DNA from: an uncultured Bacilli bacterium
GTDB taxonomy: Bacteria > Bacillota_I > Bacilli_A > RF39 > UBA660
DNA: 36,007 nucleotides
Assembly: GCA_944358695.1 (NCBI GenBank)
Contig: CALVRM010000023.1
Location: forward strand, 1-36,007
Direction of reading: 5' to 3'
Part shown: one piece after another, positions 3,158 to 34,315 of the stretch
Position numbering within the stretch: the first letter of the stretch is position 1
Layout of the letters: each line of letters opens with the position of its first letter
Program-made: the position numbers and the translations under genes
Notes under the pieces: generated by a model
The model's input: the letters and a program-made list of their open reading frames with translations, nothing else
What the model was told of the DNA's origin: nothing
Database searches by the model: none

Positions 3158-4432
3158 ATGAATTACGAATTATACAATATGGGGAACTATAACTTATATT
3201 TGATCAATACTGATAAATTTAAAACAATTTCAGTATCTGCATATTTTTGTCATGAAGATACTCGAGAAGACGGTGTGTATTCAGCCATTTTAAAAGATGT
3301 TTTGGAAGCAGGAACTGCGGGCTATGAAAAGTTAAATGATTATTATAAACAGAGGCTAGAAATATATGACCCGAAAGTAACGATTAGAAATCTCACTTTT
3401 GGTAAAGAAAGTGCTTTCTTATTAAATGGGCAATTTGCCAATGAAAAATATACGGAAAAGGGAATGAATGAAAAAAGTATTAAATTTATTTTTGATATGC
3501 TTTATAATCCGAAATTAGAAGGCCAAGCTTTTGAGGAAGAGACTTTTGAAATTTGCCGCCATGATTATGTAGAGTTACTTAAAGCTTCTAAAGATAATCC
3601 AAGAGTATACAGTAGAGCTCGTCTTTGGGAAGAGATGAATGTATGTGATTATCAAGTTATGTCAAATGATGAAGTTATTGACTTTGCTTCAAAAATGACT
3701 GCTCATGATTTATATCGATACTATCAAAGCTTATTTACGGAAAATTCGTTAGATATTTTTATTATTGGTGATTTTGATAACGAAGAAATGAAAAATATTA
3801 TTAATGGCCTAATAAAAGGTGATTTTAAACCGTCTTCTAAAAAACGTTATATCAATTTTAGTAGTGTTCGTAGTAAAGCTAAAAAAGTTATCGAGCCCGC
3901 TCAAACAGGGCAAAGCCAATTAGCGATTGGTTTAAAATTTACGGATTTAACAGATTTTGAGCGTAATTATGTATCGATATTTTATATAAGCATTTTAGGT
4001 GGGAATTGGAGTTCTAAATTAAATCAAGTAGTGCGTGAAGAGAACTCTTTGTGTTATTATATTGGGGCACTTCGTAATATGACATGTAGTGTGGCCTACA
4101 TATATGCGGGAATTGATGCGGGAAATTTTGAAAAAACTTGCAAGTTAATTAAAGAACAAATGCAGTTAATGGTCAAAGGTGATTTTACTTTAGATCATAT
4201 GAAGCAGGTTAAACAAATTTATGAAAATTCTTTAGTAGAAATAGAAGATAATCAACTGTCTATATTAAATACATTAGTATCACAAGTATTAAATGATGCT
4301 GATGATATTGCTAAAAGGCGCGAGGAAATAAACAAAGTTACTAAGAAGGATATTGTCGCATTAGCAAAAAAAATTAATTTTGATGTAATTTATTTACTTA
4401 AGGGGGAAAATAATGAAAAAGGTCAAGCTTAA
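3158..4432 (+). CDS. M16 family protein without zinc motif (YmfF-like partner)
   Basis: A 424-residue protein of the insulinase/pitrilysin (M16) fold. The position where active members have HxxEH reads KDVLE (46-50, in the context AILKDVLEAGT), so it cannot bind the catalytic zinc in the usual way. It is followed, with a 20-base overlap, by an M16 protein with an intact HxxEH. Such inactive/active pairs are known in the family (B. subtilis YmfF/YmfH, alpha/beta mitochondrial processing peptidase), where the inactive partner shapes the substrate chamber. The start at 3158 is supported by AAGAGGTGAAAT. Substrate is unknown. Confidence 0.85.
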   Translation: MNYELYNMGNYNLYLINTDKFKTISVSAYFCHEDTREDGVYSAILKDVLEAGTAGYEKLNDYYKQRLEIYDPKVTIRNLTFGKESAFLLNGQFANEKYTEKGMNEKSIKFIFDMLYNPKLEGQAFEEETFEICRHDYVELLKASKDNPRVYSRARLWEEMNVCDYQVMSNDEVIDFASKMTAHDLYRYYQSLFTENSLDIFIIGDFDNEEMKNIINGLIKGDFKPSSKKRYINFSSVRSKAKKVIEPAQTGQSQLAIGLKFTDLTDFERNYVSIFYISILGGNWSSKLNQVVREENSLCYYIGALRNMTCSVAYIYAGIDAGNFEKTCKLIKEQMQLMVKGDFTLDHMKQVKQIYENSLVEIEDNQLSILNTLVSQVLNDADDIAKRREEINKVTKKDIVALAKKINFDVIYLLKGENNEKGQA

Positions 4433-5687
4433 GGGTTTAGAATTAGATGTGTATAAAGGCAAGCTAGATAATGGGCTGCTAGTTTATATTTGTCCGATGG
4501 AAAAACATGATACTCATGCTTCGATTGTTGTAAGGTATGGTAATGATGTATTGGAATTTGTACCGAGAGGGAAAAATGATTTTACGAAAATTCCACCGGG
4601 AACAGCGCATTTTTTGGAACATAAAATGTTTGCAACTGAAGAGGGCCTTGATCCAATGATTTTATTTTCCAATAACGGTGCTTCTTCTAATGCTTATACT
4701 TCTTCAAATGTTACTCGTTATTATTTTACTGGGGCGTCTCATTTTTATGACAATTTAAAAATTTTACTTGATTGTATTACAACACCTTATTTTACTAAAG
4801 AAAATATTGAAAAAGAGCAGGGAATAATTGAACAAGAAATTAAAGCTGGTTTTGATGACCCTGGACATATGGCTTATTTTTTAGCTTGTAAGAGTTTGTT
4901 TAAATCTCATCCTCACAAATATCCAGTTGCTGGTTACGTTGATTCGATTAAAAAATTGACACCAGAAATGTTATACGATTGTTATAATACTTTTTATCAT
5001 CCTGATAATATGTATTTAGTTATTACTGGTAATGTTGATCCTGATGAAGCTTTTGCTTTTGTTCAAAATTATTACCAGGGGTGCAATTTTATGGCTCACG
5101 CAGAAATAAAAGTTAAACAGTACGCTGAAAAAGGACAAGTGGCTATTAAAAAAGCTGTTGAAACGATGGACATTACTAAGAAGATTTTGACGATTAATTA
5201 TAAAGTAAAAGTTGATAATACTAAATGTGAGAAGTTTTTTACTAATCTTTATTTGTTAATTTATTTAGATATTTTATTTAGTGAGATGTCTGATTTATAT
5301 GACGAGAACCACCATGATAAAAACATATTAAGGCAGATAGAATATTATATTGAAAATGTTGAAGATTATGTGGCGATTTATTTTGATATTGAGGTTATAG
5401 ATGATGAGGGTGTTTTAAAGAAAATTAATGATACAATTAATCAAAAAGAGTTTACTGAAGAAGATTTTAAACTAATTTCAAAAAATCTTGTTAAATCAGC
5501 AATCTTATCGACGGAAAATGTAAATGGGGTTGCTAATTTAATCGTCAATCAAGAACTTCTATATGATAAATTTCATACAGATTTTTATGATAAATATAAA
5601 AATTTAAGCTATCAAGATTGCAAAGAATTTATAGAGAGTTTAGACTTTTCTAATTATTCAATCGGAATTATTAAAAAGGAAGAATAA
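4413..5687 (+). CDS. M16 family zinc peptidase (YmfH-like, active partner)
   Basis: A 424-residue M16 metallopeptidase. The inverted zinc motif HFLEH is at 66-70 (His66 and His70 as ligands, Glu69 as base), and the third ligand is probably Glu142 in the stretch EQGIIEQEI. It has the same length as the upstream partner and probably forms a heterodimer with it. The ATG at 4413 lies inside the end of the upstream gene and is preceded by a very G-rich ribosome site (AAGGGGGAAAA). This G run is also the best complement in the window to the C-rich stretch of the candidate small RNA at 18245 (see findings). Confidence 0.88.
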   Translation: MKKVKLKGLELDVYKGKLDNGLLVYICPMEKHDTHASIVVRYGNDVLEFVPRGKNDFTKIPPGTAHFLEHKMFATEEGLDPMILFSNNGASSNAYTSSNVTRYYFTGASHFYDNLKILLDCITTPYFTKENIEKEQGIIEQEIKAGFDDPGHMAYFLACKSLFKSHPHKYPVAGYVDSIKKLTPEMLYDCYNTFYHPDNMYLVITGNVDPDEAFAFVQNYYQGCNFMAHAEIKVKQYAEKGQVAIKKAVETMDITKKILTINYKVKVDNTKCEKFFTNLYLLIYLDILFSEMSDLYDENHHDKNILRQIEYYIENVEDYVAIYFDIEVIDDEGVLKKINDTINQKEFTEEDFKLISKNLVKSAILSTENVNGVANLIVNQELLYDKFHTDFYDKYKNLSYQDCKEFIESLDFSNYSIGIIKKEE

Positions 5688-15428: not shown

Positions 15429-15890
15429 TTATTGCCAGGCTTCATAAACATATAAAATATTATCTTCTAAATCATAAAACATAAATATTTTAGAATTATC
15501 ATCGTGTTTAATTAAATAATAATTTAACGGTTTATCATCACTAGGTACATATTTTTCTGGAATATTATATTTTTCTACATATTCTTTCCATTGCCTTGGG
15601 ATATCAGGAGATTCTTTATATACCCAATCAAGAGAATTGAATTTTTTAATTTTTTCTTTGTCATTATATTTTAAAACATAATAATGTTGTTGGTCTCTTC
15701 CTGGAGCACCATCCTGCTGATAAAGAACTTTGTCAGCAACAGGAATATGTAAATTCCAATTGACTGCTAAATCAATAAATTTAGCTTGTTTATTATACCA
15801 TTTAGTAAAATTAGAAAAATTTAAAACAGCAATAATGAGTAGTACGATTGCTACACCAATAGTAATGAAAAAACACTTGCTTTTTTTCAC
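15429..15890 (-). CDS. Hypothetical membrane-anchored protein (153 aa)
   Basis: I do not recognise this family. The protein has one N-terminal membrane helix (about 7-25, FFITIGVAIVLLIIAVL) after a short basic start (MKKSK). An outer domain of about 125 residues follows, rich in Tyr, Trp, Asp and Lys. No lipobox or catalytic motif is visible. The start is GTG at 15890, supported by AGAGGTGG. It is transcribed alone from a strong promoter (15911-15938), opposite in direction to its neighbours nifJ and recG. The topology suggests a cell-surface protein. Confidence 0.75.
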   Translation of the reverse strand: MKKSKCFFITIGVAIVLLIIAVLNFSNFTKWYNKQAKFIDLAVNWNLHIPVADKVLYQQDGAPGRDQQHYYVLKYNDKEKIKKFNSLDWVYKESPDIPRQWKEYVEKYNIPEKYVPSDDKPLNYYLIKHDDNSKIFMFYDLEDNILYVYEAWQ

Positions 15891-16019: not shown

Positions 16020-16125
16020 AATAAACAAAAAGGACAGTCCCCCCTGAAGGGCTGTCCAAATAAAAGAATAAAAAGGGGCTGGCTAGTTTACACTAGCGCC
16101 AATTCAACATAAATTGAATTGGTGG
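16020..16125 (-). ncRNA. Candidate small RNA gene on the minus strand upstream of recG
   Basis: A complete transcription unit can be read without any open frame. The promoter lies at 16131-16158. The transcript from about 16125 then folds into CCAATTCAA/TTGAATTGG (9 bp), then GCTAGT/ACTAGC with an outer GGC/GCC, then a single-stranded stretch with CCCC and TTTTTATTC. It ends in a GGACAG/CTGTCC stem (with an inner CCC/GGG) followed by TTTTTGTTT, as in a rho-independent terminator. I do not match it to any RNA family that I know. On the plus strand the same stem would pair slightly better (a G-U pair replaces an A-C mismatch) but lacks a T run. Confidence 0.5.
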
Positions 16126-16130
16126 TTAAT

Positions 16131-16158
16131 ATATTATCATAAAAAAAAAATATGTCAA
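16131..16158 (-). promoter_or_regulatory. Promoter of the candidate minus-strand small RNA
   Basis: On the minus strand: TTGACA, a 16-base T-rich spacer, and TAATAT preceded by TGA. It points away from recG and has no protein gene within reach. Its layout is the same as that of the promoter at 15911-15938. Confidence 0.65.
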
Positions 16159-16194
16159 CAGTTTTTTTAAAAAAAAATAAAAAAGGTGGGAAGC

Positions 16195-18177
16195 ATGGAG
16201 ATACAGGAAGTAAAAGGAATCGGAATTAATTCGGTCAAAGATTGGAAAGCACTTGGGATAAACGATGACATCGATCTAGTAACGTATTATCCTTTTAGAT
16301 ATGAAGTTATTGAAAGAAGCGATATTAATAATTTAGAAGATGGTAGTAAGATTATTATCGATGGTATTTGTGAAAATACACCGAATGTTTACCACTTTTC
16401 TAAAAAGTTAAATAAGATGACTTTTAGATTGAATACGGGTGAAAAGCTATTAAATATAACGATTTTTAATCGTAGTTTTTTAAAGCGTAATATCAATCCA
16501 GGAACGGAGCTTATAGTCATTGGAAAATACGATATTAAACATCATAGTATTACGGCAAGTGATTTGAAATTTGGTAAATTATTAGAAACGATTATTGAGC
16601 CAATTTATCATTCTTCGTTTAAAATTAATAGCCGAAAAATAAATAAAACTATAAATTCAGTGATTAGACAAGTTATAGTGCCTGATTATATTCCCAGTAG
16701 TTTAAAAAAACATTATAATTTTATGGATAAAAATAAAGCAATATATTTAATGCATAATCCCCAAAATATGGAGATGGTCAATAGGGCTATTGAACGCTTG
16801 AAGTATGAAGAATTATTTTTGTTTATGCTTAAGATGAATTACTTAAAAAATTGTAATCGCGAAGGAACGGGGCTTAAACGGGATGTTTGTTATGATTTGA
16901 TTTTAAAAGCGATTGAAAGTATACCGTTTAAATTAACCGATGACCAGATGAAAAGTGTAAGAGATATTTATGAAGATTTAGTTAGTTCTAGAAGAATGAA
17001 TAGATTATTACAGGGAGACGTTGGTAGCGGAAAAACTGTCGTGGCTTTTATTAGTTTATATATTAATTATTTAAGTGGTTATCAGGGAGCGATGATGGCA
17101 CCAACTGAAATTTTAGCGATTCAGCACTATAATAATATTCAAAAATTATTCCCGCAGTTAAAAACGGTTTTGTTAACTGGGAAATTAAAAGTTAAAGAAA
17201 GACGGGAATTATTGAAGCTGGTAGAGAATGGTGAAGCTAATGTGATTATTGGTACTCATGCCTTGATAAGTGATGATGTGATTTATAAAAATTTGGGATT
17301 AGTTGTTACGGATGAACAACATCGATTTGGGGTTAATCAACGGGCTAATTTAAAAAACAAAGGTATATTTCCGGATATTTTGTATATGAGTGCTACACCA
17401 ATTCCGAGAACTTATGCTTTAACGCTTTATGGTGATATGGATATTTCTAGTATTAAAACAATGCCCAATGGACGTAAGAGCGTTAAGACTTATTTAAAAA
17501 GTAATAAAGAGATTAAAGACGTTTTATATATGATGCTTGATGAGATTAAAAAGGGCCATCAAATATATGTAATTGCTCCTTTAGTCATAGAATCAGATAA
17601 AATTGACATGGAAAATGTTTATGAACTTGAGGAGAAAATGAATAAAGCTTTTGGTAAAATATGTACGGTTGGGGTTTTACATGGTAAAATGAAGTCGACC
17701 GAAAAAGACGAAGTTATGAGAGATTTTAAAGATAATAATATTCAAATTTTAATTAGTACGACGGTTATTGAAGTTGGAGTTGACGTTGCTAATGCAACGA
17801 TGATGGTAATATTTGATAGTTATCGTTTTGGGTTATCGGCTTTACACCAGCTTAGGGGAAGGGTTGGACGTAACGATTTAGACTCATATTGTATTTTAAT
17901 TAGCGATCGTGAAACTAAGCGTTTAAAGGTTTTAACTGAGACAAATGATGGTTTTAAAGTTAGTGAAGAAGATTTTATGTTAAGAGGTAGTGGAGATTTA
18001 TTTGGCTTTCGTCAAAGTGGTGATATGAGTTTTAAATTGGCTGATATTAAAAAAGATTATCGATTATTATTAACGGTTAAAGTAGATAGCGAACATTTTT
18101 TGAACAGTCAAGATTATATAAATGAAGAGAATAGTCATATAAGAGAAGTGGCCGAAAAATCGAGCGCTTTGGATTAG
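16195..18177 (+). CDS. recG: ATP-dependent DNA helicase RecG
   Basis: RecG remodels stalled replication forks and branch-migrates Holliday junctions. The start is set at ATG 16195 (660 residues) because AAGGTGGG lies 4-5 bases upstream; the in-frame GTG at 16186 would lie inside that site. The N-terminal wedge/OB domain covers about 1-190. Walker A is GDVGSGKT (274-281), motif II is DEQHRFG (about 373-379), followed by motif III SATPIPRT (about 399) and the C-terminal helicase half (STTVIEVGVDV, LHQLRGRVGR). The length is close to the usual 680. No standard promoter is obvious directly upstream, where the minus-strand small RNA promoter sits. Confidence 0.95.
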   Translation: MEIQEVKGIGINSVKDWKALGINDDIDLVTYYPFRYEVIERSDINNLEDGSKIIIDGICENTPNVYHFSKKLNKMTFRLNTGEKLLNITIFNRSFLKRNINPGTELIVIGKYDIKHHSITASDLKFGKLLETIIEPIYHSSFKINSRKINKTINSVIRQVIVPDYIPSSLKKHYNFMDKNKAIYLMHNPQNMEMVNRAIERLKYEELFLFMLKMNYLKNCNREGTGLKRDVCYDLILKAIESIPFKLTDDQMKSVRDIYEDLVSSRRMNRLLQGDVGSGKTVVAFISLYINYLSGYQGAMMAPTEILAIQHYNNIQKLFPQLKTVLLTGKLKVKERRELLKLVENGEANVIIGTHALISDDVIYKNLGLVVTDEQHRFGVNQRANLKNKGIFPDILYMSATPIPRTYALTLYGDMDISSIKTMPNGRKSVKTYLKSNKEIKDVLYMMLDEIKKGHQIYVIAPLVIESDKIDMENVYELEEKMNKAFGKICTVGVLHGKMKSTEKDEVMRDFKDNNIQILISTTVIEVGVDVANATMMVIFDSYRFGLSALHQLRGRVGRNDLDSYCILISDRETKRLKVLTETNDGFKVSEEDFMLRGSGDLFGFRQSGDMSFKLADIKKDYRLLLTVKVDSEHFLNSQDYINEENSHIREVAEKSSALD

Positions 18178-18209: not shown

Positions 18210-18238
18210 TTGACTTTTAATGTTAAATATTTTATACT
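18210..18238 (+). promoter_or_regulatory. Promoter of the candidate small RNA after recG
   Basis: TTGACT and TATACT are separated by exactly 17 bases, in a gene-free stretch 30-60 bases after the recG stop. No plus-strand open frame of useful length follows before the terminator. Confidence 0.7.
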
Positions 18239-18244
18239 TGTAAT

Positions 18245-18340
18245 AGCATAGACGTAACTGTCTATGTTAGGAAGACTTACGAATATAATGTGAGTATTCC
18301 GACCAAAACCCCCTGAAGGAGCCATGTGGCTCCGTTTTTT
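18245..18340 (+). ncRNA. Candidate small RNA (about 95 nt) downstream of recG
   Basis: The unit has a promoter (18210-18238), three hairpins and an intrinsic terminator, with no ORF. Hairpin 1 is AGCATAGAC/GTCTATGTT around GTAACT (9 pairs). Hairpin 2 is GGAA-CTTAC with GTGAG-TTCC around a 2x2 internal loop and the loop GAATATAAT. A single-stranded, C-rich linker (ACCAAAACCCCCTGAA) follows. Hairpin 3 is GGAGCC, ATGT, GGCTCC and GTTTTTTG. An exposed C-run is a hallmark of Gram-positive regulatory RNAs that pair with Shine-Dalgarno sites (RsaE/RoxS, FsrA). It does not look like SRP RNA, 6S, tmRNA or a riboswitch that I know. Confidence 0.55.
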
Positions 18341-18368: not shown

Positions 18369-20156
18369 TTACACATCAATTTTATATAGTGAAAATAAAT
18401 ATTTGTTTAATTCCTCATTATTAAGCATTAAAATATTTTGAATATCATATTTTGATAATTCAGGAATCGAAAAATTTTTTATATACTTTTTTTGAAAACA
18501 TTTAAAATTGCCAGCAATACTATAACTAGTATTTTCTATATAATATTTCATGACATCGGAATTAAGTATTTTTAGTAATACATGTTTGTCATATGTAAAG
18601 TTTGTTAAGCAATAACCATTTGATAACAGGGCTTCGTTAGAAGGGCAGTCCATAAATTTTGGGATATTACTAAAGGTTGAGAATATTATTTTTTCACCAA
18701 ACATATTTAAACCTTGAGTCCGTCCATAAGCGTACCATGGCTTTAGTAAAATACCTTTGTCTTTTTTTTCAATGATTGTCTTATTTTTTGTAAAGTATTT
18801 ATAACATAGTGGAAAGTTTTGTTTTATTGTATTTTCATCATAAATAATTGCTTTCCCTTCAATAATTGAATATGGGAAAATAATTCTATCTATACTTTTG
18901 GTTGTTTTATATTTTGATATTTTGATAAAAGGTTTTGTTATTTCTGGTTCAATATAATAAATTTTATCTTTGATTATTTTATAATAAAGTTTTTTTTCTT
19001 GATCGTAGCCATCTAATATGAATAATTTGTCTCTTAAAGTGGCTATTCCAGTTTTGATATATTTGTCTAATTTGTTATAGGATTCGATGGTTTTAAGATT
19101 GTTTAGCGTATCATTACTTGTTAAATACCAGCCTTCATCGTTTAAAGTATTAAGGTTTTTTTTGTAAAATTTCATGTTTTTAAAAATGGCATTAACATTT
19201 GAAGCTTTATATATTTGGCAATAGTTAAAGCTTTGGTTATTTTTATTTAATATAACAATGCAATTATAAGTTAAAGTTGGAGAGAATAGGGTATTGTCTT
19301 TAAAGTCGATAATTGTATTCAATAATTGATTTTCTTTGATAAATCGCCTTAATTTTAAAGCTGATTTTATATATAAAAAATTATTAGGTATTATATACCC
19401 GATGGTGCCATCTTCGGTTATATATTGGGTGCTTTTTTCGATAAAAGCGTAAAATATGTTAAAGACTCCTTCTTGCGTGGTTTGAAAATGGTTTTTGAGT
19501 TTACAGATATATTTTTTATTTAAATCGTGATTATTAATGTACGGTGGATTACCTACGATGTAATTGAATTTATGGACATTAAATATTTTGGACCAATCAC
19601 AGAATAAACTATCTTCGCAGATTAAATTAAAACTATATTCTTCTAGATCTTCACCGTTAGTAATGGCAAAAAGCGATAACAAAATTTTGACTCTATAAAT
19701 ATTTTCTTGCTTTAAATCTATACCATAGAGATTATTTTTTAGAATATCGCTAATTTTGATATGATATTTAGAATTAATATGTTTAAGCACCACAATGAGA
19801 AAAATTCCGCAACCGCATGATGGATCGATAATTTTGGATTTACGATTAAACTTAATAATTGTGTTTTGAATAATATAATCGGCGATAAATTCGGGGGTAA
19901 AAATAATCCCATTTTTTATTTTTTCTTCTTCGTTAAATAAGTTTTCAAAAAATTTATCCAAGGAATTTATGTCGGTTATCGAAAAATTACCTTTAATTTT
20001 ATTATAAAGTTGATAATTAACATTTTCTATTTTTTCGGCGATAAGTTTATTATTTATTTTATTAATGTTGTTGTTATCTAAAAATAGTTTGATAGCAGCA
20101 TTTTCAATTTCTTTAATAGAGTGATGTTCTAATAATTTATTAATACTATTTTTCAT
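18369..20156 (-). CDS. Adenine-N6 DNA methyltransferase, Eco57I/TaqI-like
   Basis: A 595-residue class I DNA methyltransferase that probably protects host DNA in a restriction-modification system. A FTPEFIADY stretch (86-94) precedes SAM motif I, DPSCGCGIF (111-119), which has Cys where most have Ser. Motif IV is NPPY (203-206), the signature of adenine-N6 enzymes. A TaqI-like specificity region fills the second half (for example LKPWYAYGRTQGLN). The start is ATG at 20156 with GGTGAT upstream. The frame stays open for 71 further codons, but that part overlaps the promoter and start of the divergent gene. The gene faces away from its likely partner at 20266. The coding strand is very AT-rich, with many Asn and Lys. 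Confidence 0.88.
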   Translation of the reverse strand: MKNSINKLLEHHSIKEIENAAIKLFLDNNNINKINNKLIAEKIENVNYQLYNKIKGNFSITDINSLDKFFENLFNEEEKIKNGIIFTPEFIADYIIQNTIIKFNRKSKIIDPSCGCGIFLIVVLKHINSKYHIKISDILKNNLYGIDLKQENIYRVKILLSLFAITNGEDLEEYSFNLICEDSLFCDWSKIFNVHKFNYIVGNPPYINNHDLNKKYICKLKNHFQTTQEGVFNIFYAFIEKSTQYITEDGTIGYIIPNNFLYIKSALKLRRFIKENQLLNTIIDFKDNTLFSPTLTYNCIVILNKNNQSFNYCQIYKASNVNAIFKNMKFYKKNLNTLNDEGWYLTSNDTLNNLKTIESYNKLDKYIKTGIATLRDKLFILDGYDQEKKLYYKIIKDKIYYIEPEITKPFIKISKYKTTKSIDRIIFPYSIIEGKAIIYDENTIKQNFPLCYKYFTKNKTIIEKKDKGILLKPWYAYGRTQGLNMFGEKIIFSTFSNIPKFMDCPSNEALLSNGYCLTNFTYDKHVLLKILNSDVMKYYIENTSYSIAGNFKCFQKKYIKNFSIPELSKYDIQNILMLNNEELNKYLFSLYKIDV

Positions 20157-20174
20157 TTTATTATCACCATTTTT

Positions 20175-20180
20175 ATTATA
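20175..20180 (-). promoter_or_regulatory. -10 element of the methyltransferase gene
   Basis: TATAAT on the minus strand, preceded by TTG, about 19 bases before the ATG. The -35 region is poor. It lies in the 109-base gap between the divergent genes, close to the promoter of the opposite gene. Confidence 0.45.
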
Positions 20181-20219
20181 CAATAAAAATTCGTTTTTTT
20201 TATAAATTATTAATATTAT

Positions 20220-20249
20220 TTGAGAAAAAGCTGAAAAAAGTGTTAAAAT
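20220..20249 (+). promoter_or_regulatory. Promoter of the probable restriction endonuclease gene
   Basis: TTGAGA, 18 bases, TAAAAT, with TGT before the -10. The GAGGTG ribosome site and the ATG at 20266 follow. Confidence 0.6.
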
Positions 20250-20265
20250 ATAGCTGAGGTGTTTT

Positions 20266-21129
20266 ATGAAAATGGAAGAGTGCCTTTTTAAAATAAAAAA
20301 AGAACTAGAACTTTGTATATTGACGGGTAAAAACAATGGAAAAGTTTTGGAAAATGGTTCACGTGCCAAAATGAGTTTAATTCGGTCTTCGAGATTAATT
20401 GGTTATTTACATGAATGGGTAAAGTATGAATTGATTAATAATGGCGTGAAGCCCGGAAATATTTTTCCGCCTTTAGGAAATTCAGTGCCTGAAATTAAGA
20501 TTACCGGCTTTTTAAAACAAAAAGATCAAGATATAACAGTAATTCCTTCTGGGTTAAAGAAGCATGAGCAAGTAATTGACTGGGGACCTTTGGGTCATGA
20601 AAATAAGAAGGATCCTTTTGGGGCTGAGTACACAGCTAATTGTTTAATAATAAATGTTAGAAGTCAGCTTAGTAGTCTAGCTAAAAATGCTGATACCTTA
20701 TTCGAAAGAACTTTTGCTGAAGCGTTGAATCTTCATATTATTCATAAGGACATTGTTTTGGGAGAGGTTTATTTAATTCCAGTATATGAATATAATGAGG
20801 CGGATGCAAAAAGAAATAAAGTATCTTTTTCTTCGAAAAAAACGAATTTGGAAAAGTATATTAGTTTTTTTACCGCTATAAATAATAGAAAAAGTAGTGA
20901 GGATGCTGAGTATAAATATGAAAGGTGTACACTATTAATTGTTGATTTTTCACGAGATATTCCTAAAATTTATAATACAACTGAAGAATTAAAAGCTGAT
21001 AATTTGATTTCTTTAGATTTTGATTTAAAACTTGAAGATTTATCATTTAGTAATTTTGTTTCCGATTTATTATATAAATATGCTGAAAGATTTAATATTT
21101 TTAATATTGTCGATAATAAAGACTTGTAA
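20266..21129 (+). CDS. Probable type II restriction endonuclease of unrecognised family
   Basis: I do not recognise the family from sequence alone. The 287-residue soluble protein lies head-to-head with an adenine-N6 methyltransferase, which is the main reason for the call. It contains a stretch that could be a PD-(D/E)XK-type active site: Glu76 (VPEIKIT), then Lys85 and Asp87/Asp89 (FLKQKDQDITV). An Arg/Ser/Gln-rich helix follows (VRSQLSSLAKN). No helicase, ATPase, HNH or GIY-YIG motif is seen, so a simple cleavage subunit fits best. The start is ATG 20266 after GAGGTG; ATG 20272 is possible. A terminator follows at 21171. It could also be a small unrelated accessory protein. Confidence 0.6.
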   Translation: MKMEECLFKIKKELELCILTGKNNGKVLENGSRAKMSLIRSSRLIGYLHEWVKYELINNGVKPGNIFPPLGNSVPEIKITGFLKQKDQDITVIPSGLKKHEQVIDWGPLGHENKKDPFGAEYTANCLIINVRSQLSSLAKNADTLFERTFAEALNLHIIHKDIVLGEVYLIPVYEYNEADAKRNKVSFSSKKTNLEKYISFFTAINNRKSSEDAEYKYERCTLLIVDFSRDIPKIYNTTEELKADNLISLDFDLKLEDLSFSNFVSDLLYKYAERFNIFNIVDNKDL

Positions 21130-34239: not shown

Positions 34240-34315
34240 GTCTCCGTAGCTCAGTTGGTAGAGCAATTGACTCTTAATCAATGGGTCCACGGTTCGAGCC
34301 CGTGCGGGGACACCA
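34240..34315 (+). tRNA. tRNA-Lys (anticodon CTT)
   Basis: A 76-base cloverleaf with encoded CCA. The acceptor stem is GTCTCCG with CGGGGAC and the D arm is GTAGCTCAGTTGGTAGAGC. The anticodon stem ATTGA/TCAAT encloses the loop CTCTTAA (anticodon CTT, reads AAG). The T arm GGTTCGAGCCC (in the stem CACGG/CCGTG region) is intact. It stands alone with promoter and terminator. Confidence 0.97.

Follow-up and report, generated by a model that had tools for sequence, protein, structure and literature searches.

Two conserved and mutually complementary RNA genes on either side of recG in an uncultured family of Bacilli

Does the short stretch behind recG, at positions 18210-18340 on the plus strand, hold an independent RNA gene, and if so, with what might its product pair? 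The window, by which we mean the whole stretch of DNA analysed (36,007 nt), is contig C23 of the 1.15 Mb genome, in 45 contigs, of an uncultured gut bacterium. A preliminary description, made from the letters of the window, had claimed a complete and undescribed small RNA gene of ~95 nt at this position, with an exposed C-run as its likely pairing site and the ribosome site of an M16 peptidase gene as a target. The evidence considered here is comparative DNA, drawn from genomes that are fragmented assemblies and, for the named relatives, metagenome-assembled.

A structured RNA gene behind recG

The promoter (18210-18238) consists of TTGACT (18210-18215), a 17-nt spacer and TATACT (18233-18238), and an intrinsic terminator, GGAGCC-ATGT-GGCTCC-GTTTTTT, lies at 18318-18340, both exactly where they had been described. 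Taken alone the promoter match is at chance level, with 8 promoter-like sites seen in this AT-rich region and 8.0 expected, whilst 1 terminator was seen against 0.2 expected. It is because of its conservation in relatives that the gene, hereafter sRNA-1, rises above chance. Folding of 101 nt gave exactly three hairpins at -33.9 kcal/mol, compared with a mean of -17 for shuffled sequences (z = -5.4; 0/200 shuffles equalled it), and so the three hairpins with an unpaired linker of the preliminary description stand. Hairpin 1 (CATAGAC/GTCTATG) spans 18244-18269 and hairpin 2, with a conserved CTTACG...TGTGAG, spans 18270-18300. Between hairpin 2 and the terminator the linker GACCAAAACCCCCTGAA (18301-18317) is left unpaired, and its core CCCCCTGA (18309-18316) is invariant and a proposed seed. 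Thirteen members folded individually returned the three-hairpin plan each time, with the linker open.

Homologues of sRNA-1 within the genus share 74-81% DNA identity. Aligned with those from other genera, they keep TTGAC-N17-TATACTT or near variants, the two hairpins and the linker; the promoter elements TTGAC and TATACTT are retained genus-wide and largely family-wide. At the position of the terminator, relatives carry unrelated hairpins instead. A covariance model built from 15 sequences, with promoter and terminator left out, found matches in 220/291 genomes and 128/150 genera of one uncultured Bacilli family, and in 37/44 genomes of the genus at E up to 1, E-values from covariance models built in this analysis being rough. 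Across the family the linker ACCAAAACCCCCUGAAG is almost invariant. The exposed C-run is the likely pairing site. Among 45 distinct sequences, 94.9% of cells were paired (77.5% when shuffled), double-sided changes numbered 166 cells compared with 59 and fell in 13 of the 17 pairs, and the covariation score was 0.600 against 0.266; covariation was also seen with the 15 sequences. It affects both hairpins, hairpin 1 occurring for example as CATAGGC/GCCTATG and GCGTGA/TCACGC.

Among the checks put forward for the gene were a search for a known RNA class and a search for covarying stems in related genomes. No Rfam 15 family reached the gathering cut-off for sRNA-1, the sole passing match in the window being a tRNA at 34240-34312, and the stems covary with the promoter retained. 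Taken together, these data argue that sRNA-1 is almost certainly a real RNA gene, and they point to an independent gene of about 95 nt that was previously uncatalogued. A limited literature search returned no earlier description of it or of the second RNA described below.

RoxS/RsaE and FsrA of Bacillus and Staphylococcus are small stand-alone sRNAs in which an unpaired C-rich stretch pairs with ribosome sites (PMC8216469). sRNA-1 is likewise small, stand-alone and structured, with stem-loops and an unpaired C-rich stretch. It differs in that a search for RsaE/FsrA homology gave no Rfam match even at E up to 10, in its structure and gene neighbourhood, in its linker ACCAAAACCCCCUGAAG and in being restricted, as seen here, to one uncultured family.

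A complementary RNA across recG

The conserved gene recG (16186-18177, plus strand; Pfam) is flanked on its other side by a second RNA, sRNA-2. The window holds one further CCCCCTGAAG, at 16040-16049, and its minus-strand reading is the loop of the sRNA-2 terminator. sRNA-2 covers 16023-16132 on the minus strand, 2.2 kb from sRNA-1 and divergent from it, directed away from recG. Its promoter (16131-16158), TTGACA (16158-16153), 16 nt and TAATAT (16136-16131), is kept in homologues. Sequence comparison delimits hairpin A (CCAATTCAA/TTGAATTGG; 16099-16122), which is followed by hairpin B (GCTAGTGTAAACTAGC; 16082-16097), nearly invariant in sequence, by the unpaired CCAGCCCCTTTTTATTCTTTTATTT (16058-16082), invariant within the genus, and by the terminator (16023-16057), whose loop CCTTCAGGGGG, the complement of 16040-16049, is complementary to CCCCCTGAAGG of sRNA-1. 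The preliminary description missed this RNA, as it did the comK ribosome site and the integration site at the sRNA-1 3′ end that are treated below.

Most genomes of the genus contain sRNA-2 at 80-93% identity. The core, GCTAGT..ACTAGCC(A/G)(A/G)CCCCTTTTTATTCTTT, is almost invariant, and a search model built on it matched 131/144 genera, genomes of 0.5-0.6 Mb included. Of 46 sampled family genomes 43 carried sRNA-2, compared with 0/300 outside the family (about 300 genomes of the class, Infernal strict filters), and database sequences with sRNA-2 bear labels such as uncultured Bacilli or Mycoplasmatota, e.g. Candidatus Pelethosoma. Rfam 15 gave no family at the gathering cut-off, and no RsaOG or similar match appeared at E up to 5. 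On sequence comparison, sRNA-2 is a second unreported RNA gene.

Some genomes hold tandem copies of sRNA-2 ~155-160 nt apart (L243, at 5090 and 5245; L330), and in L243 one copy is without the loop G-run. In another genome (G175:C3:1002362-1002632) sRNA-1 and sRNA-2 stand head to head, ~130 nt apart, without the 2-kb recG interval. Downstream of sRNA-2 in the window, a 153-aa ORF (15429-15890, minus strand) has no Pfam or PADLOC match.

The sRNA-2 terminator loop retains UCAGGGGG, the exact complement of CCCCCUGA in sRNA-1. In the window the match extends over 11 contiguous bp with a predicted energy of -26.9 kcal/mol, and the predicted dimer reaches -73.6 kcal/mol, compared with -68.3 kcal/mol for the two RNAs separately. 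Among 167 distinct sRNA-2 copies the loop contains CAGGGGG in 136 and TCAGGGGG, the reverse complement of CCCCCTGA, in 127, against 0.1% in shuffles; the letters of the terminator stem vary freely, even completely, between genera whilst the loop stays. In one genome (G031) CCCCCTGA has become CCCCCAAA and the sRNA-2 loop is without GGGGG, and a second (G145) is similar. Five others (G018, G020, G029, G032 and G061) have kept CCCCCTGA and lost the loop G-run, and some species have the loop with no sRNA-1 detected beside recG. Therefore, the C-run has, or had, another use. We consider it probable that sRNA-1 pairs with sRNA-2, as the exact complementarity suggests; the AGGGG of the sRNA-2 loop can also pair with CCCCU of sRNA-2 itself.

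Sponges of C-rich sRNAs are known. RosA of B. subtilis is a stand-alone RNA whose G-rich sites match the C-rich RoxS and FsrA, for which it acts as a sponge, and RsaI/RsaOG of S. aureus has G-rich sites plus a C-rich stretch for mRNAs (PMC8216469). sRNA-2 is similarly stand-alone, and the sRNA to which its G-rich loop is complementary is C-rich and encoded in the same genome. It is closer to RsaI since both have G-rich and C-rich stretches. Unlike RosA and RsaI, its G-run sits in the terminator loop, it is divergent across recG from its putative partner and it has no Rfam match.

Candidate messenger targets

ComK is the master regulator of competence, the switch for DNA uptake. Genome-wide there are only 12 CAGGGGG sites, among them the comK ribosome site (PF06338, E = 2.6e-34 for the encoded protein); others are the two sRNA loci and two sites in tRNA-like sequences. 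ComK was found in 135/145 family genomes. The comK loci of the family (e.g. L376, L377-L406) were compared in 131 species, with hardly a genus represented twice. GGGGG stood in the ribosome site in 80 of them (about 60%; 73 as AGGGGG), compared with 13/408 (3%) of other family starts counted by an identical rule (Fisher p about 4e-46, a value that is overstated because species are not independent). Dependence of the comK G-run on sRNA-1 was rejected, with the G-run present in 64/101 species with detectable sRNA-1 and in 16/30 without. Therefore, the C-run of sRNA-2 or some other factor may read comK. Association with the sRNA-2 loop was a trend only (35/53 vs 6/16, p = 0.08). Duplex energies favour comK; they add little here because the reversed linker scores alike, and as proof of pairing direction they were rejected on the same ground. 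From the enrichment, comK is the best candidate mRNA target for either C-rich RNA or for the two together, and its regulation by at least one of them appears somewhat probable. A CAGGGGG ribosome site also precedes an M48 peptidase gene (L366, G000:C2), in a part of contig C2 that appears to have a higher GC content than the rest and may be of foreign origin or reflect misbinning of the contig.

We hypothesise that sRNA-1 is a trans-acting regulatory RNA of ~95 nt, whose two structural hairpins and terminator would keep the linker ACCAAAACCCCCUGAAG single-stranded. If transcribed, the linker would pair with G-runs in the ribosome sites of mRNAs and block translation, the most likely conserved target being comK with its (A)GGGGG site in most genera. 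sRNA-2 would act as a sponge, its loop UCAGGGGG capturing sRNA-1 through CCCCCUGA, and the CCAACCCCUUUUUAUUCUUU stretch of sRNA-2 may be a second C-rich seed, leaving the kind of target unchanged. To this whole scheme, in which a C-rich RNA represses and its partner sponges it as in RoxS/RosA of B. subtilis, we give close to an even chance. csRNAs of Streptococcus pneumoniae, which are controlled by CiaR, limit competence by pairing near the comC ribosome site (PMC4507080). The likeness lies in a putative restraint of competence by a small RNA that pairs close to where the ribosome binds a competence transcript, although the candidate here is comK and not comC.

The roles may be reversed, with sRNA-2 regulating comK via its own CCAACCCCUUUUU and sRNA-1 serving as an anti-sRNA by opening or sequestering it. 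In favour, sRNA-2 was detected more widely than sRNA-1 (in those 131/144 genera), the comK G-run persists where sRNA-1 was not detected, and the sRNA-2 linker is predicted to pair with comK at -16.8 kcal/mol. However, CCCCCU of sRNA-1 matches AGGGGG at six positions, and the sRNA-2 linker sets comK apart from other starts less well, 19% of background starts being as good, compared with 5% for sRNA-1; we regard this reversal as unlikely. A little less likely again is that sRNA-1 is a broad regulator of the metabolic or iron type, like RoxS/FsrA, acting at many G-rich sites of which comK is one or to which it is unrelated. Its C-rich unpaired linker and the 3% of family starts that have GGGGG would suit such a role, whereas among a limited sample of genes no further class stood out and the M16 site is not conserved.

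That M16 site was the target favoured by the preliminary description. The match is literally there: CTTAAGGGGG at 4397-4406, ahead of the M16 peptidase gene (4413-5687), is complementary to the C-run at 9/10 positions, with a predicted energy of -15.0 kcal/mol. Yet nearly all genus orthologues compared have ordinary ribosome sites such as AAAGGGAGA or AAAAGGAG whilst the sRNA linker is invariant, and M16 was rejected as a conserved target. The sRNA-2 loop fits the C-run far better (-26.9 vs -15.0 kcal/mol), and the paraslipin ribosome site is predicted to pair at -12.9 kcal/mol. Repression of M16 as the function of the C-run is thus highly improbable, and a species-specific effect of sRNA-1 on this gene is possible.

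Integration at the sRNA-1 3′ end

RecG lies directly upstream in 86/112 sRNA-1 loci and the downstream side is variable. In the window, the variable site directly behind sRNA-1 holds a type II DNA methyltransferase (18369-20369, minus strand) with its partner restriction enzyme (20266-21129, plus strand). Of the 57 loci whose sequence extends far enough, about 20 have a tyrosine integrase (PF00589) that converges on sRNA-1; for most of these integrase genes the distance behind the C-run is 85-190 nt, and direct repeats often lie in the interval. An unoccupied site (G019) has a gene block directly after sRNA-1. In an occupied one (G028) sRNA-1 runs into an integrase element, and on another contig a second CCCCCTGAAG and terminator precede the same block, 77% identical to that of G019 over 2.4 kb, the G028 junctions thus lying on two contigs. 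A viral contig carries the C-run junction beside an integrase. The locus is found with and without an element, and an integrase accompanies the junction at which the 3′ end is exchanged. From the G019/G028 comparison it follows that CCCCCTGAAG is where elements enter and that they supply a new terminator. The junction at which they replace the 3′ end is the linker core CCCCCTGA, and the terminators of sRNA-1 have been exchanged because the end of the gene is an integration site of tyrosine-integrase elements.

Three loci with only the C-run and a terminator (L013, L014 and L015) were considered as a second RNA family, which was rejected by the repeats flanking the C-run and by the G028/G019 comparison. 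Together with a fourth (L026) they are probably the far ends of integrated elements with a copy of the C-run and terminator. L026 additionally has CAACCAAAA and a hairpin in front, and is possibly an element-borne imitation of sRNA-1.

tRNA and tmRNA genes are known integration sites of phages and islands, where the element brings a replacement 3′ end and the gene stays intact. The situation at sRNA-1 is alike in that an RNA gene is entered at its 3′ end and receives a new end from the element. It differs in that the gene entered encodes an sRNA, of which the terminator is what gets exchanged. That the conserved stretch is a mere attB of mobile elements devoid of RNA function, as the converging integrases, the occupied and empty sites and the viral junction might suggest, is extremely improbable given the covariation, since element-free loci also conserve the promoter and the covarying hairpins, neither of which belongs to the part that is exchanged, terminator function survives every exchange, and there is a partner RNA whose complementarity is exact.

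Returning to the repressor and sponge scheme, its fullest form is a two-RNA competence switch in a family of more than 150 genera, in which sRNA-1 would block the unusual AGGGGG of comK, the sRNA-2 loop would mimic that site, and elements landing at sRNA-1 would swap its terminator. We offer this form tentatively, as somewhat less probable than the general scheme.

In summary, two uncatalogued RNA families become available for annotation, which are apparently restricted to one family and near-universal within it. With exactly complementary RNAs flanking a single gene, a possible RNA-on-RNA control circuit becomes open to testing in bacteria so far beyond cultivation. Moreover, the anomaly at the comK ribosome site provides a concrete hypothesis for how competence may be restrained in these organisms, and an sRNA gene emerges as a repeated landing site of integrase elements.
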